In this document: positions 1,565 through 35,361 of the stretch, piece after piece
How the letters are laid out: each line of letters starts with the position of its first letter
Position numbering within the stretch: position 1 is the first letter of the stretch
Source: an uncultured Roseiflexus sp.
GTDB lineage: Bacteria > Chloroflexota > Chloroflexia > Chloroflexales > Roseiflexaceae
DNA length: 64,000 nt
NCBI GenBank assembly: GCA_937935075.1
Contig: CALGYB010000030.1
Span: 1 to 64,000, forward strand
Direction: 5' to 3'
The notes under the pieces: generated by a model
What the model was told of the DNA's origin: nothing
The model's input: only the letters and a program-made list of their open reading frames with translations
Database searches by the model: none
Translations under genes and position numbers: made by a program

Positions 1565-2722
1565 TTACGCGCCGGGATCGTTGACCGGCGGCGGGCATCC
1601 TTCTGCTGCCGCAGCGATGATGTGCGGATCGGCGGGTTTCGCCTCCGATGCGAAATAGCGACGCTGGAAAAAGAACGCGACATTGACCAGCCCGATCATC
1701 ACCGGCACTTCGACGAGCGGACCAATGACGGCGGCAAAAGCAGCGCCGGAGCTGATGCCGAAGACGGCCACCGCGACGGCGATGGCGAGCTCGAAGTTGT
1801 TGCTGGCAGCGGTAAAGGCGATAGTAGTGGTCTTTCGATAATCGGCGCCGATGCGATATCCCATCCAGAAACTGATCAGGAACATCAGCACAAAGTAGAG
1901 CAGCAGCGGAATGGCGATGCGCACGACATCGAACGGTATCTGGACAATGAGTTCTCCCTTGAGACTAAACATCACGACAATCGTGAAGAGCAGTGCGATC
2001 AGGGTCAGCGGGCTGATGCGTGGTACGAAGTGTCGTTCGTACCATTCCGCTCCCTTGATGCGCCGGAGGACGAAGCGGGTCAGAAAACCGGCAATCATCG
2101 GGATGCCCAGGTAGATAAACACACTTTCCGCAATCTGTCCGATGCTGATCTGGACGATACTGCCCTGCAACCCGAAGAGCGGCGGCAGGACGGTAATGAA
2201 CACCCAGGCATAGACGCTGTAGAACAGCACCTGAAAGACGCTGTTGAATGCGACGATTCCCGCAGCGTACTCGGTGTCGCCCTTTGCCAGTTCGTTCCAG
2301 ACGATGACCATCGCAATGCAGCGTGCCAGCCCGATCATGATCAGCCCGATCATGTACTCCGGGTAGTTGTGCAGGAACACGATCGCCAGCACGAACATCA
2401 GGACGGGTCCAATGATCCAGTTTTGCACCAGTGATAATCCCAGAATGCGGACATTGCGGAACACTTCCGGGAGTTCTTCATAGTGCACCTTGGCGAAGGG
2501 CGGGTACATCATGAGGATCAATCCGATTGCAATGGGAATGTTGGTCGTCCCCACATTAAACCGGTCGAGGAACGTTTCGATGCCGGGAATAAAATAACCG
2601 AGTGCAACCCCGACCCCCATTGCCAGAAAGATCCAGACCGTCAGAAACCGATCAAGCAGCGATAGGCGCTTTACAACCCCGCCGTGTGACGGCGCCTGCG
2701 TTGCGGTAATCGTCTGAGCCAT
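1565..2722 (-). CDS. arsB: ACR3-family arsenite efflux transporter
   Basis: [64 protein letters not shown] are ACR3 signatures. Confidence 0.93.
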
Positions 2723-2734
2723 TCCTGCCTCCTT

Positions 2735-3793
2735 TCAGATCACCAGATTGAACACATACCCGATTGCGACAATCCCCAGCGCCACGATGCCGATAAACGT
2801 CGCAATCAGACGCGGCTTCAGCACCCGGCGCAGAATAATCATTTCGGGCAAACTCAGCGCCACCACAGCCATCATGAACGCCAGCGCTGTGCCAAGCGCC
2901 GCCCCCTTGACCATCAGCGCCTGAATAACCGGCATGATCCCGGCGGCATTGGCGTAGAGCGGCACGCCGAGCAGCACGGCTGCGGGAACCGACCACCACG
3001 CATCGCGCCCCATAATGTCCGCCATTGCCTGCTCGGGCACATAGCCGTGAATACCCGCACCAACCGCGATGCCGACGACGACATACAGCCAGACCTTTCC
3101 GACAATTTCGCGGGTGCTCTGCCACGCCGCAGCGAAGCGCTGATGCCACGTCAGTTGCTGGTGTGCGACTGCCCCGCCGCCAGATCGGATCTGCCAGACG
3201 AAATCCTCGACATAGCGCTCCATGCGCATCCGACCGATGATTACCCCCGACACAATGGCGATTGCCATCCCCGATGCCAGGTAGAGTGCGGCGATCTGCC
3301 AGCCGAATATGCCGAAGAGCATCACCAGCGCTACTTCGTTCACCATCGGTGCGGCAATCAGAAAGGAGAAGGTGACGCCAAGCGGAATGCCCGCCTCGAC
3401 AAATCCGATAAAGAGTGGTACGGCGGAACACGAGCAGAATGGCGTCAACACGCCAAGGCCGGCTGCCAGCATATTCCCGACCCCCTCGCGTTTCCCTGAC
3501 AGCATTGCGCGGGTGCGTTCCGGGCTGAAGAATGAGCGGATGGTGGAAATGATAAAGATCATGCCGCTGAGCAGCAGCAGGATCTTCGGCACATCATAGA
3601 GGAAGAAGGCAACAGCTTCTCCCAGATGTGATCCGGCTTGCAGCCCAATGACCTCATATGTCAACCAGTCTGCCAGTCGCTGAATGCTGGTATATGCGAC
3701 GCTCCACAGCGCGGCTGCGCCGGCCACAAGCAGCCATGCGCGGCGGTTGGCGTTGTTCGCCTGTTCTGCCGAAGAAGAGATTGCCTGTGCCAT
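2735..3793 (-). CDS. Permease, COG0701/DUF318 (ArsP-like)
   Basis: GVLTPFCSCSAVPLFIGFVEAGIPLGVTFSFLIAAPMVNEVAL signature; likely start at MAQAISSS (3793), ORF open to 3826. Confidence 0.88.
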   Translation of the reverse strand: MAQAISSSAEQANNANRRAWLLVAGAAALWSVAYTSIQRLADWLTYEVIGLQAGSHLGEAVAFFLYDVPKILLLLSGMIFIISTIRSFFSPERTRAMLSGKREGVGNMLAAGLGVLTPFCSCSAVPLFIGFVEAGIPLGVTFSFLIAAPMVNEVALVMLFGIFGWQIAALYLASGMAIAIVSGVIIGRMRMERYVEDFVWQIRSGGGAVAHQQLTWHQRFAAAWQSTREIVGKVWLYVVVGIAVGAGIHGYVPEQAMADIMGRDAWWSVPAAVLLGVPLYANAAGIMPVIQALMVKGAALGTALAFMMAVVALSLPEMIILRRVLKPRLIATFIGIVALGIVAIGYVFNLVI

Positions 3794-3933
3794 AAATGAC
3801 GACCCTTCGTTATGAGTCCGCTGCACAAAGGCTTAACCACAAAGGACGCGAAGCGCACGAAGGTGAATAAAATGAAGCGCATTTCCTTTGTGTCCCTTTG
3901 TGACCTTCGTGGTTGCTTTTTGCAGTGAAGTCT

Positions 3934-17794: not shown

Positions 17795-20533
17795 TCAGGA
17801 CGCCACCGGCAGCACGAAATGAAAGACGCTGCCTTCGTTGATCCGGCTCTCGACCCAAATACGTCCGCCGAGGAGCTTGATGAGGGGTTTGACCAGCGAC
17901 AGACCGAGACCGGTGCCGCCGGCTTCGACCTTGAGCGGATTCTCGGTGCGGTAGAAACGCTCCCAGATGCGCGGCAGGTCTTCTGGCGCGATTCCAACGC
18001 CGGTATCGCGCACATCGATCTGCACATAGCGACCAGGGCGCAACCCATCGCGTTCCTCCTCAGGGATCGCATCGGCGGTGATTTCACGCGCCTCGATAGT
18101 GATCGACCCGCCGCGTGGCGTGTACTTAACCGCATTCGATACGATGTTGAAGAGAATCTGATTGAAGCGGCGAGCGTCGGCGCGCACGAGCGGCAACCCG
18201 GCAGGAATGCTCAATAACAGGTGTTGCTGCCGATCCAGGATTTTCGGTTGAAGATCGAGCATCACGGCGCTGAGGGTTTCCGCGACGTGGATCGGACGGA
18301 TCTCAAGTTCGACGCTTCCCGTCTCGATCTTGGTGATGTCGAGCAGATCGTTGATAATCGCAATCATGCGTTCGGCATTCGACTGAATAATGCCGAGGAA
18401 CTCTCTTTGCGTTTCGTTGATCGGTCCCAGGCTGCCCATCGCCAGGAGTTGGGTAAACCCTTTGATCGACGTCATCGGCGTGCGCAACTCGTGCGAGACG
18501 GTGCCGATGAACTCGGTCTTGAGCCGGTCAGACTCGACCTCGCGCGTGCGATCGCGGAACACGGCAACCGCGCCCATCAGCGTGTCCTTGCTCGAAATCA
18601 CCGGATCGAGCGTAATGCTAATAGTGCGCGGACCGATCTGGAACGTTGTCGAGAGGGTACGCGGTTGATGCTGTTCATCCCACGGATTGTTCAACAGGTC
18701 ATCGAGCGACAATTCCTCGACGCGTCGCCCCAGCAAACGTCGCAGCAGGTCCCCCAGATCCCAGGTCACCAACTCGTCGATAGGACGATCAAGGATTTTC
18801 TCGGCTGCCAGGTTCGCCGTCAGCACCGAACCACTCCGGTCGCAGACGATGACGCCATCCGAAAGGCTTTGCAGAATAGCGGTGCTCTGGCTGACCGCCT
18901 GTTCCTGACGTTGTTGCATTTCATGGCGGTGAAGGTACTGCTGTTCCATCTGCTGGTACAACTGGGCGTTATAAATGCCGATCGCAATCTGGTTGGCGGA
19001 TGACGTCAGCAGGCGTAAGTGTTCCTCGCGGAAATAACCGGTCTGTTCGTGAGAGAGCACCAGCACGCCAAGGACTTCGTGGTGCGCAATGAGCGGCACA
19101 GCGATCATCGAGCCGCTCCGTTTTGCCGACGGGTCGTCGAGTGGCGGCGGCACCCAGCGCGGGTCGGACGCAACGTCTGCCACAATCAGCGGCTTCCGAT
19201 GTTGCGCCACCCAGCCGACGATGCCCTGTCCGAGCATGAAACGTGTATGACCGATGTCGCTGTTTTTCCCCAGCACTGAGCGATCAACCAGTTGTTCGAT
19301 TTCCCGGTCGAGCAGCATGATCGATCCGTGGTCAACGCCGATCAGTTTCGCCAGGGTCTTGAGCGAGTTGTGCATAATGTCATCGCCGTCGAGCGAGCTG
19401 CTGACCTCGATCGCGATAGTGTTGAGCGTCTCGAGGGTATCGCGCTCGATCTGCAATTCACGAGTACGTTCGGCGATCCGTTCCTCCAGCACCGCATTGA
19501 ACGCGCGCACTTCCGCATACAGGCGCGCATTTTCCAGCGCAATCGCCGCCTGACCGGCGACTGAGCGGACAAAATCCTGTTGGGAACGATCGCCGAGCGT
19601 ATGCTCTTCACCCTGACAGACGATAATCCCCACAATGCCGCGCTGTGTGACGAGCGGCACGCCAAGCACCGCATGGCCTGGAAGATGCCAGCCATGCTGG
19701 TCGTGTGATGCCGGTTCAGCCACAAAAAGGGGTTCTTGCTGCTGAAGCATCTGAATGACCAGGTCATGGGCGGCATCGAGCGGCACAGAGCGGATCTCCG
19801 GCGTCGGAGCGCCGTGGCGCCAGACCATGTCAAGTCGGGTGGCATCCTCGGAGATGAGCCAGATATCAACGACAACCGGCGCCAGCACCTCTGAAAGTGC
19901 AGCGCTTATCTGCCTCAGGTGCGTTTCGCGGTCGAACGTGGACGACAGATCGTGCGCCAGTTGATTGAGCCGGGAGACTTGCAGCGTTGTCCGATCCGTG
20001 ACTTCCGCATCGCGGTAGAGGCTTTCGACCAGCATGCGGGTTTCGTTCAGTTCGCTCAACACCGTATGCGCTGCGTTGACCCATCGCTCAACGAGCAGGG
20101 TAATGGCGTGATCGATGAGATCATCGAGCGCATCGAGAAGTCGGTAGAAGCTATCGTCCTGCGACTGCTGTGCATCCGCTTCTATCGACTCGCAAAACAG
20201 CGCACGGCGGCACATGCTGCGCAGCCGCTGGAACAGCATAATCTGGCGGGGCAGGTCGTCCTCGCCGATCGTGCTCCGCAAGGCGCGCAGCGTCGTCAGG
20301 CACTCGTCGAGCGGACGTTTATCGCCGTCTGCAGCAGCGATCAACCCATCGTACAGCGCCGCCAACACGACCTTGCGCTCATCGGGATGCACGGTGATTG
20401 CTTCGCCGTTTCCTGTAGAAGCTTGAGAGTCTGGCGCGAACAGATCATCACCCGCAGCAATCCAGAGCGGCAGAAGGGTCGCGCGATTGGCGCTCAACCA
20501 GTGGGTCAGATGGGTTGATGTCGTGTGCTGCAT
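17795..20533 (-). CDS. GAF/PAS sensor histidine kinase
   Basis: GAF regions, PAS, HisKA FIGTVSHELRTPMTSIKGFTQLL, HATPase VRDTGVGIAPEDLPRIWERFYRTE and GGTGLGLSLVK. Confidence 0.93.
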   Translation of the reverse strand: MQHTTSTHLTHWLSANRATLLPLWIAAGDDLFAPDSQASTGNGEAITVHPDERKVVLAALYDGLIAAADGDKRPLDECLTTLRALRSTIGEDDLPRQIMLFQRLRSMCRRALFCESIEADAQQSQDDSFYRLLDALDDLIDHAITLLVERWVNAAHTVLSELNETRMLVESLYRDAEVTDRTTLQVSRLNQLAHDLSSTFDRETHLRQISAALSEVLAPVVVDIWLISEDATRLDMVWRHGAPTPEIRSVPLDAAHDLVIQMLQQQEPLFVAEPASHDQHGWHLPGHAVLGVPLVTQRGIVGIIVCQGEEHTLGDRSQQDFVRSVAGQAAIALENARLYAEVRAFNAVLEERIAERTRELQIERDTLETLNTIAIEVSSSLDGDDIMHNSLKTLAKLIGVDHGSIMLLDREIEQLVDRSVLGKNSDIGHTRFMLGQGIVGWVAQHRKPLIVADVASDPRWVPPPLDDPSAKRSGSMIAVPLIAHHEVLGVLVLSHEQTGYFREEHLRLLTSSANQIAIGIYNAQLYQQMEQQYLHRHEMQQRQEQAVSQSTAILQSLSDGVIVCDRSGSVLTANLAAEKILDRPIDELVTWDLGDLLRRLLGRRVEELSLDDLLNNPWDEQHQPRTLSTTFQIGPRTISITLDPVISSKDTLMGAVAVFRDRTREVESDRLKTEFIGTVSHELRTPMTSIKGFTQLLAMGSLGPINETQREFLGIIQSNAERMIAIINDLLDITKIETGSVELEIRPIHVAETLSAVMLDLQPKILDRQQHLLLSIPAGLPLVRADARRFNQILFNIVSNAVKYTPRGGSITIEAREITADAIPEEERDGLRPGRYVQIDVRDTGVGIAPEDLPRIWERFYRTENPLKVEAGGTGLGLSLVKPLIKLLGGRIWVESRINEGSVFHFVLPVAS

Positions 20534-20553
20534 AGCGGTGCAAAGACGCAGGT

Positions 20554-21129
20554 TCAGGTTTGAATAACGACTACTGTGGCATCGTCGGACTGTTTGCCGT
20601 AGATTTGGACGATCTGCTCTGCCAGCGCCTGCGGCGACTGACGAATATCGAGATGCAAATCCTGAGCGAATTGTGACGACACGCCATCACTGTACAATAC
20701 GAACAGATCGCCTGGGTCATACGTATACGTCAGTTCGAGCAAGGTCGGCAGGCGATATCCGAGAATGCCGTTCTTCGAGATCGGCTTGATCGGTTTGCGG
20801 CTGTAGACATAGATACCGATGTTGCCGACGCCGATGTACGATGCGTTGCTCTGGATCGGGTCGAGCCGCAGCAACCCGACGACGGCGCCGCGTGTGGTGT
20901 GCAGTGCTTCGTGCGAGATGCGGATGAGCTCCTGAAGTGGGCGTTCGGCACGCTCGCGGAAGATGGTTTCCGCCAGACGCGCCGCGCGCGCCGCTTCTTC
21001 GCCGCCGCCCAACCCATCGACGACGGCTGCAAGGATGCCGCTGCCGTTCAGGGGTGTCACCATCCAGATGTCGCCGGAGATCGATTGACCCCGCTTGGCG
21101 CGATTGTATGCTCCCCACGCGATGTTCAT
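20554..21129 (-). CDS. PP2C-type (SpoIIE-like) serine phosphatase, RsbX-like
   Basis: MNIAWGAYNRAKRGQSISGDIWMVTPLNGSGILAAVVDGLGGGEEAA and FVLYSDGVSSQF; start chosen at 21129, overlapping upstream gene by 4 bp. Confidence 0.85.
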   Translation of the reverse strand: MNIAWGAYNRAKRGQSISGDIWMVTPLNGSGILAAVVDGLGGGEEAARAARLAETIFRERAERPLQELIRISHEALHTTRGAVVGLLRLDPIQSNASYIGVGNIGIYVYSRKPIKPISKNGILGYRLPTLLELTYTYDPGDLFVLYSDGVSSQFAQDLHLDIRQSPQALAEQIVQIYGKQSDDATVVVIQT

Positions 21130-21557
21130 CGGCGAACCTTTCCAGGCCCGCCGGTGCGTTTGCCGGGCCACTTCACTGCGCGCACGCGCGTCCCCACGCC
21201 AACCGTCGACTCGATGGAGAAGTCGTCCATCAAGCGTTGAACGCCGGGAAGACCTGCGCCAAGCGTCTGTGCGGTGCTGTAGCCGTCGCGCAGCGCCAGC
21301 GCAATGTCGGCGATGCCGGGTCCCTGATCGCGCGCCTCGATTGCGATGCCCTGACGACCGTTGTCTTCGACGCATTCGATCATCAGTTCACCGCTGCCGG
21401 CATGTGCCAGAATGTTGCGCGTGAGTTCCAGAACCGCAATTTCAATGCGCGTGCGGTCGATGTCGTCGAACCCCAGGGCCGTCGCCATATCGCGTGCGCG
21501 CCCCATTGCGACATACACATCGACCTCTCGCCTGACAGGGCAGACTATCGCCTCCAT
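21126..21557 (-). CDS. RsbT-like serine kinase / anti-sigma regulatory HATPase
   Basis: MGRARDMATALGFDDIDRTRIEIAVLELTRNILAHAGSGEL ... ARDQGPGIADIALALRDGYSTAQTLGAGLPGVQRLMDDF. Confidence 0.9.
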   Translation of the reverse strand: MEAIVCPVRREVDVYVAMGRARDMATALGFDDIDRTRIEIAVLELTRNILAHAGSGELMIECVEDNGRQGIAIEARDQGPGIADIALALRDGYSTAQTLGAGLPGVQRLMDDFSIESTVGVGTRVRAVKWPGKRTGGPGKVRR

Positions 21558-33948: not shown

Positions 33949-34002
33949 GACATCTCCTGTCGATCATTCATCGCACTACAACATCTGCCAGGAGACCTGC
34001 CA

Positions 34003-35307
34003 GTGACATCTGCTCTTACACTTGGTTGCATTCTGAACGACGCGCGTTTCACCTTCTGGTCGATTATGCGCCATGGTGTGCGGGCGCGTGCGGCAGAGCA
34101 CGGCGTAGCGGTCATTGATCAGGATGCCCCGACTGTCGAAGCGCAGATCGACATAGTTGCCGATCTGCTGCGGCGACGGGTGCATGCACTGATCCTGGGA
34201 CCGGCGCACGAGACTCGCGCTTTCGCGCAGCACCTCGAACTGGCACGCCTGGCGCGCATTCCGGTTATCGAGGTTGATGGCGGCATTCTCGAGGGGTATG
34301 TCAGCGCGACCGTTCGTTCCGATGAACGTCAGGGATTGATACGGATGGCAGAATTGCTCACGGCGCATCTGGGCGATCAGTTTCGTATCGCCCTGATCGC
34401 CGGTCCCCACAACCATCGCGCCGACATGCTTGCCGAGACGCTGAGTCGATGGCCCCGTGTGCAGGTTGTTGCGCAGGCGGTCGGCGATTGGACGCGCGAC
34501 AGCGGCAGGCGTCTGACGGAGGAATGGCTGCGCTCTGGCCAGCCGATAGACGCCATCTTTGCCGCCAATGATCCCATGGCGCTCGGCGCAATCGATGCGC
34601 TCAAGGCGCTGCATCTGACCGGAAATGTCGTGGTTGCCGGTTTTGATGGGCTGCCCGAGGCGTTGCGCGCGATTCACAACAACCATATGCTGGCGACCGT
34701 CAACCAGGACCCGTTGTGCATCGGTCGTCAGGCGGTCGATGTGGCGCTCCAGGCGGTGCACGGCGCTCCAATCGAGCGGCAGATTCTCACGCCTGGCGAA
34801 TTGATTACCCGCGACACTGTGACCGAGTCGGCGCTGCGCGCGCTCGATCTGCTCCCCGGCATGATGCGCGATTTTATCGAGAGCAATGCCGAACGACAGA
34901 AATTGCAGGAAGAAATCATCGCGGCACAGCGCTCGACCATTCGAGAATTGTCGACGCCGATCATCCCTGTTGACGAACGCACGCTCATCGTTCCGTTGAT
35001 CGGTGCGATCGACAGCACCCGTGCGATGCAGATGACTCAGTCGATCCTCGAAGCCATTGGCGAGCGGCGCGCCGACGATGTCATTATCGACATCACTGGC
35101 ATTGCCGTCATCGATACCGGCGTCGCCAATCATCTGGTGCAGACGGCGCAGGCTGCCGGTCTGCTCGGCGCACATGTGACCCTGGCGGGGATGTCGCCGG
35201 AGGTTGCACAGACCATTGTGCAACTGGGGGTCAAGCTTGGTCAGTTGACAACATGCAGCAACTTACAGGCAGCGTTGGAATTGGCGCGTCGCCGTCGCCG
35301 TCGGTAA
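34003..35307 (+). CDS. RsbR-like protein: LacI/periplasmic-binding-like sensor domain fused to STAS domain
   Basis: N-term LGCILNDARFTFWSIMRHGVRARAAEHGV ... IFAANDPMALGAIDALKALHLTGNVVVAGFDGLPEALRAI; C-term LSTPIIPVDERTLIVPLIGAIDSTRAMQMTQSILEAI...DITGIAVIDTGVANHLVQTAQAAGLLGAHVTLAGMSPEVAQTIVQLG. Confidence 0.88.
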   Translation: MTSALTLGCILNDARFTFWSIMRHGVRARAAEHGVAVIDQDAPTVEAQIDIVADLLRRRVHALILGPAHETRAFAQHLELARLARIPVIEVDGGILEGYVSATVRSDERQGLIRMAELLTAHLGDQFRIALIAGPHNHRADMLAETLSRWPRVQVVAQAVGDWTRDSGRRLTEEWLRSGQPIDAIFAANDPMALGAIDALKALHLTGNVVVAGFDGLPEALRAIHNNHMLATVNQDPLCIGRQAVDVALQAVHGAPIERQILTPGELITRDTVTESALRALDLLPGMMRDFIESNAERQKLQEEIIAAQRSTIRELSTPIIPVDERTLIVPLIGAIDSTRAMQMTQSILEAIGERRADDVIIDITGIAVIDTGVANHLVQTAQAAGLLGAHVTLAGMSPEVAQTIVQLGVKLGQLTTCSNLQAALELARRRRRR

Positions 35308-35361
35308 AAGCGGAGGCGTTGCATTGCAACGCCTCCCTATGATGGATATGTATATGCCATC

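Follow-up and report, generated by a model that had tools for sequence, protein, structure and literature searches.

A protein of 434 residues, encoded from a GTG start codon at 34003–35307 (+) of the window (the whole 64,000-nucleotide stretch of DNA from an uncultured Roseiflexus sp. analysed here), joins a type-1 periplasmic-binding protein (PBP) domain to a C-terminal STAS domain of the RsbR class. This PBP–STAS protein is probably a cytosolic RsbR paralogue with a sugar-binding Venus-flytrap input domain, related to the secreted ribose-binding-type components of ABC transporters and sensing a predicted small ligand within a mixed stressosome. We infer ligand binding, stressosome assembly and phosphorylation of the protein. 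The features of the locus are collected in Table 1.

Table 1 Features of the PBP–STAS gene and of candidate partner genes in the window.
Feature	Position	Strand	Basis
PBP–STAS fusion gene	34003..35307	+	ORF, domains, orthologues in five further genomes
Ribosome-binding motif AGGAG	33990..33994	+	Sequence; GTG 8 nt downstream
RbsB-type periplasmic-binding domain (Peripla_BP_4), residues 5–274, without signal peptide	34015..34824	+	Pfam, PDB sequence match, AlphaFold, Foldseek, hydropathy
Connecting helix, residues 275–317	34825..34953	+	Low-confidence full-length model (helix 275–313); identity within the genus
RsbR-class STAS domain, residues 318–430	34954..35292	+	Pfam; PDB matches only RsbR, RsbS, YtvA
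S338 codon	35014..35016	+	Alignment to 7b0u/9o4r; equivalent to RsbR T171 (B. subtilis) / T175 (Listeria)
T372 codon	35116..35118	+	Alignment; equivalent to RsbR T205 (B. subtilis) / T209 (Listeria)
T404 codon	35212..35214	+	Alignment; equivalent to Listeria RsbR T241
11-bp perfect hairpin, possible shared terminator	35312..35336		Sequence; fold z = -3.7
RsbT-like kinase, candidate partner	21126..21557	-	HATPase_c_2; 52% identity to the RsbT whose gene overlaps that of RsbS
SpoIIE/PP2C phosphatase, RsbX-like by position after RsbT	20554..21375	-	Pfam SpoIIE

Pfam analysis of the 434-residue protein returned both domains, Peripla_BP_4 at residues 12–254 (E = 3.9e-41) and STAS at residues 320–411 (E = 3.9e-15). 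When compared with the sequences in the PDB, residues 6–274 matched the ribose-binding protein 2ioy (1.2e-31) and residues 303–428 matched Listeria RsbR (1e-28). An initial annotation of the window, made from the sequence alone, had given the same reading frame, an RsbR-type STAS domain and no signal peptide, and all three were confirmed. Hydropathy analysis found neither a signal peptide nor a transmembrane segment, there being no hydrophobic N-terminal stretch; the maximum 19-residue hydropathy was 1.40, whereas two homologues that are secreted reach 2.35–2.38. The LacI/type-1 PBP character proposed for the N-terminus stood as far as the type-1 fold is concerned, but the closer relationship is to RbsB-type proteins (Peripla_BP_4) rather than to LacI, and the helix that had been described as short spans about 40 residues. 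A LacI-family repressor was ruled out, as Pfam detected no helix-turn-helix (HTH) and the PBP fold starts at residue ~6. A link to a defence system was also sought using PADLOC, which gave no match.

Full-length orthologues, free of stop codons and frameshifts, were found in four Roseiflexus-type congeners (81–88% identity) and in one sister genus (68%). The PBP, helix and STAS modules are all under purifying selection, with dN/dS values of 0.11–0.17, 0.02–0.16 and 0.05–0.13, respectively, mostly ~0.1. The presence of full-length orthologues in five genomes, together with a dN/dS of 0.02–0.17 in every module, excludes a chance fusion. Similarly, the idea that an ABC substrate-binding gene was joined to a STAS gene by an annotation or assembly artefact is vanishingly improbable and was rejected on the basis of these orthologues, since the same fusion recurs at 68–88% identity, in one case in a single-contig assembly (G003).

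The PBP–STAS protein has a narrow distribution, limited to a single small lineage. Its family was present in 5 of 400 sampled Chloroflexota genomes, and a scan of the genomes of 84,980 species using family-specific patterns returned only records of the Roseiflexus type and of the sister genus. No single match in plasmid records spanned at least 80% of the protein, the best among the matches listed being substrate-binding proteins. Equally, among PBP homologues other than the orthologues, drawn from 301 Chloroflexota genomes, the 28 best had no STAS domain within their loci.

The gene order (histidine kinase, response regulator, SH3, PBP–STAS, M50 protease and further genes) was kept in the compared records from the genus and the sister genus, and the synteny with the upstream PAS histidine kinase and response regulator is conserved. 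Neither ABC-transporter genes in this conserved neighbourhood nor a ligand-uptake or catabolic gene set flanking the PBP–STAS gene was found. The hairpin downstream of the gene lies between the convergent PBP–STAS and M50 genes and has no T-run. One congener (G004) carries the syntenic locus without the PBP–STAS gene (L094:6291-6540, G004:C97), and the 249-bp gap there consists of unrelated intergenic DNA with no gene remnants. In a tree of the flanking proteins, with G009 as the outgroup, G004 falls inside the genus, so the absence represents a loss. Such a clean loss means that the gene is not essential.

When residues 1–281 were folded alone by AlphaFold from a 29-sequence alignment, they adopted a PBP fold with a mean pLDDT of 92.8, in agreement with the fold read earlier from the sequence. 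The best PDB matches of this model in Foldseek were RbsB-type sugar-binding proteins, for example 4yo7, 2ioy and 2dri (TM 0.88–0.92). We then compared the cleft with the ribose-contact residues of E. coli RBP (PMC2630998, PMC3676853). Six of the ten contacts are identical, F15, D89, R141, N190, D215 and Q235 of RBP corresponding to F18, D92, R139, N189, D215 and Q235. Two further contacts are conservatively aromatic (F16 to W19, F164 to W163) and two are changed (N13 to F16, R90 to G93). R139, N189 and D190 are invariant in all 29 aligned PBP proteins, and R139, N189, D215 and Q235 are invariant across all orthologues, down to 68% identity; D92 is replaced by N in one orthologue. From this pattern of kept and changed contacts, the cleft looks like a working sugar-type cleft of altered specificity. 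Its ligand would be a small cytosolic molecule, probably a monosaccharide, a sugar alcohol or a nucleoside-like compound, and not simply ribose.

The two changed contacts and the D92 to N replacement also mean that ligand binding could be lost, which would leave the PBP domain as a mere dimerisation or protein-contact module on an ordinary RsbR-like protein. The faster evolution of the PBP part relative to the helix and STAS is in line with this explanation. We nevertheless regard it as unlikely, because eight of the ten contacts are identical or conservatively aromatic, four of them do not vary among the orthologues and the dN/dS of the PBP part is still low.

The full-length protein, modelled by AlphaFold with six close orthologues, gave a poor pLDDT of 55.6, and this model was used solely for the predicted helix at residues 275–313. 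The connecting helix is the most conserved part of the protein within the genus (88–95% identity). At E ≤ 1e-3, the structural matches of the STAS domain were to RsbR, RsbS and YtvA only, the best being RsbR chains at 1e-29, and no SpoIIAA or RsbV structure was among the significant PDB matches. S338, T372 and T404 are invariant in six orthologues. The equivalents of the first two, T175 and T209 in Listeria RsbR and T171 and T205 in B. subtilis, are sites of RsbT (PMC6614362), and T241 of Listeria RsbR is a further phosphorylated site (PMC9237128). The threonine that had been pointed out near position 35116 is exactly T372, the counterpart of Listeria T209, and the first site is a serine (S338) where RsbR has a threonine.

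Candidate partners are encoded elsewhere in the same genome. The sole RsbS recognised there (L050:2553–2936, contig C33; 1e-38 to Listeria RsbS) is encoded by a gene that overlaps that of an RsbT (L050:2923–3324), and 28 RsbR-like STAS proteins, including the PBP–STAS protein, accompany this one RsbS. The PBP–STAS gene itself sits outside any rsbRST(X) cluster, with RsbS on another contig and the nearest RsbT 12 kb away. B. subtilis likewise has RsbR paralogues encoded outside the operon. The RsbT gene at 21126–21557, put forward earlier as the kinase, is real (HATPase_c_2), but its nearness is weak evidence: the two genes are 12 kb apart in the window and 11 kb apart in G003, whereas in G009 and G004 the RsbT gene and the PBP–STAS locus lie on separate contigs. 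As the linkage is not conserved, it is no evidence of shared function, and we dropped it as such. This RsbT-like kinase, the RsbX-like SpoIIE phosphatase and a GAF-GAF-PAS histidine kinase are encoded in a row at 17795-21557 (-) of the window. The order is similar to that of the rsbRSTX-plus-histidine-kinase modules (PMC9237108), but R and S are missing from it. Eight SpoIIE/PP2C matches were found in the genome; an output target with an RsbU_N domain was not.

About 18 of the 28 RsbR-like proteins have N-terminal hydrophobic segments of the multi-TM or HAMP type and are apparently membrane-bound, which makes it hard to fit them all into a closed cytosolic stressosome shell. This misfit, the eight phosphatase matches and the conserved synteny with the histidine kinase and response regulator would all suit a STAS domain that works outside a stressosome, either in a simple partner switch of the RsbV/SpoIIAA type with an anti-sigma kinase or on the neighbouring histidine kinase and response regulator. 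This explanation appears rather unlikely, as all significant structure matches were to RsbR, RsbS or YtvA, the protein retains both the second phosphosite, which is specific to RsbR, and the helix that runs into STAS, and the block of histidine kinase, response regulator and SH3 genes remains in G004 where the PBP–STAS gene is missing.

Taking the PBP–STAS protein as a ligand-sensing stressosome subunit, we propose the following sequence of events. Binding of the ligand would close the PBP cleft, and the connecting helix would carry this movement on to the STAS dimer within a mixed stressosome that also contains RsbS. The altered STAS dimer would change the phosphorylation of S338/T372 and of RsbS by RsbT, such that RsbT is either released or held, and RsbX-like phosphatases would reset the system. 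The analysis supports the structural steps of this scheme; the ligand, the assembly, the kinase and the output are proposed.

RsbR proteins are otherwise known with input domains of four types, namely non-heme globin-like, heme-globin, LOV/PAS and GAF. The PBP–STAS protein resembles the RsbR proteins of known stressosomes (B. subtilis RsbRA–RD, Listeria RsbR1) in the class of its C-terminal STAS, the helix into STAS and the sites of the T171/T205/T237 type, present as S338/T372/T404. It differs from them in the serine at the first site, in the lack of an rsbRST operon and in its input domain, a type-1 PBP fold of ~275 residues as opposed to the much shorter non-heme globin-like N-RsbR. YtvA (LOV–STAS) and the globin-coupled RsbR of Vibrio likewise carry a cytosolic small-molecule or cofactor sensor on an RsbR-type STAS, but their sensors bind flavin or heme and respond to light or O2, whereas the PBP–STAS protein has a carbohydrate-binding fold. 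The RbsB-type substrate-binding proteins of ribose/CUT2 ABC transporters have the same fold, ~30% identity over the whole domain and most ligand contacts in common with it; in contrast to the PBP–STAS protein, which lacks a signal peptide and ends in STAS, they are secreted and feed a permease. The PBP fold also serves as a signalling sugar sensor in LacI-family repressors and in PBP-sensor histidine kinases (for example BT1754), which in place of STAS use a DNA-binding HTH and a transmembrane kinase, respectively, as output.

The PBP–STAS architecture is not unique, as this genome and other families of the Chloroflexales also have a second fusion, with a LacI-type PBP. The copy in this genome, 718 residues long (L021:1634–3787; G000:C184:3133-5286, -), consists of a LacI-type PBP (Peripla_BP_3), ~300 residues without domain assignment and a STAS domain. 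Its relatives from the other families (L053–L056) are 32–34% identical. Like the protein described here, the L021-type proteins have an N-terminal PBP, a C-terminal RsbR-like STAS and no apparent signal peptide; they differ in the type of PBP and in the long intervening region. Because the PBP types of the two fusions differ, the combination of PBP and STAS probably arose at least twice, with a separate origin for the L021 type. One orthologue of the L021-type protein (L052, G005:C61:21999-23954) contains a single in-frame TAG, which may reflect decay of this copy or a mistake in the assembly. Elsewhere in the genome (L022, G000:C175), a dCache–HAMP–STAS gene (2359-3888) overlaps the gene of an RbsB-like protein that is secreted and bears an apparent lipobox (1391-2380); in this pair, a PBP outside the cell may feed into a STAS receptor that spans the membrane.

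A broader reading, which we put forward tentatively and hold to be possible rather than probable, is that an ABC-transporter sugar-binding protein was recruited to the cytosol as an input turret of a stressosome, where RsbT release would be under the direct control of a defined, small metabolite of carbohydrate-like nature. A single STAS hub with ~28 interchangeable R subunits would then let the lineage monitor intracellular as well as extracellular sugars; the monitoring on both sides is suggested by the second, LacI-type fusion and by the overlap of the dCache–HAMP–STAS gene with that of the secreted PBP, all within one genome.

A literature search, with subscription reviews outside its reach, found nothing relevant on PBP–STAS proteins or on stressosomes of Chloroflexi; the fusion did not prove to be a common family already described, a possibility that the initial annotation had left to be checked. 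YtvA is the only RsbR paralogue of B. subtilis with a known signal (PMC9237108). The PBP–STAS protein suggests a likely chemical input for the stressosome, few of whose signals are known. The route by which changes in the N-terminal domain of RsbR are passed to the STAS core is debated. The binding of a ligand to a PBP drives a large and well-known hinge motion. If the PBP–STAS protein binds its ligand and assembles with RsbS, a soluble molecule could be used to switch the stressosome on demand, and the question of signal transmission would thereby become directly testable.
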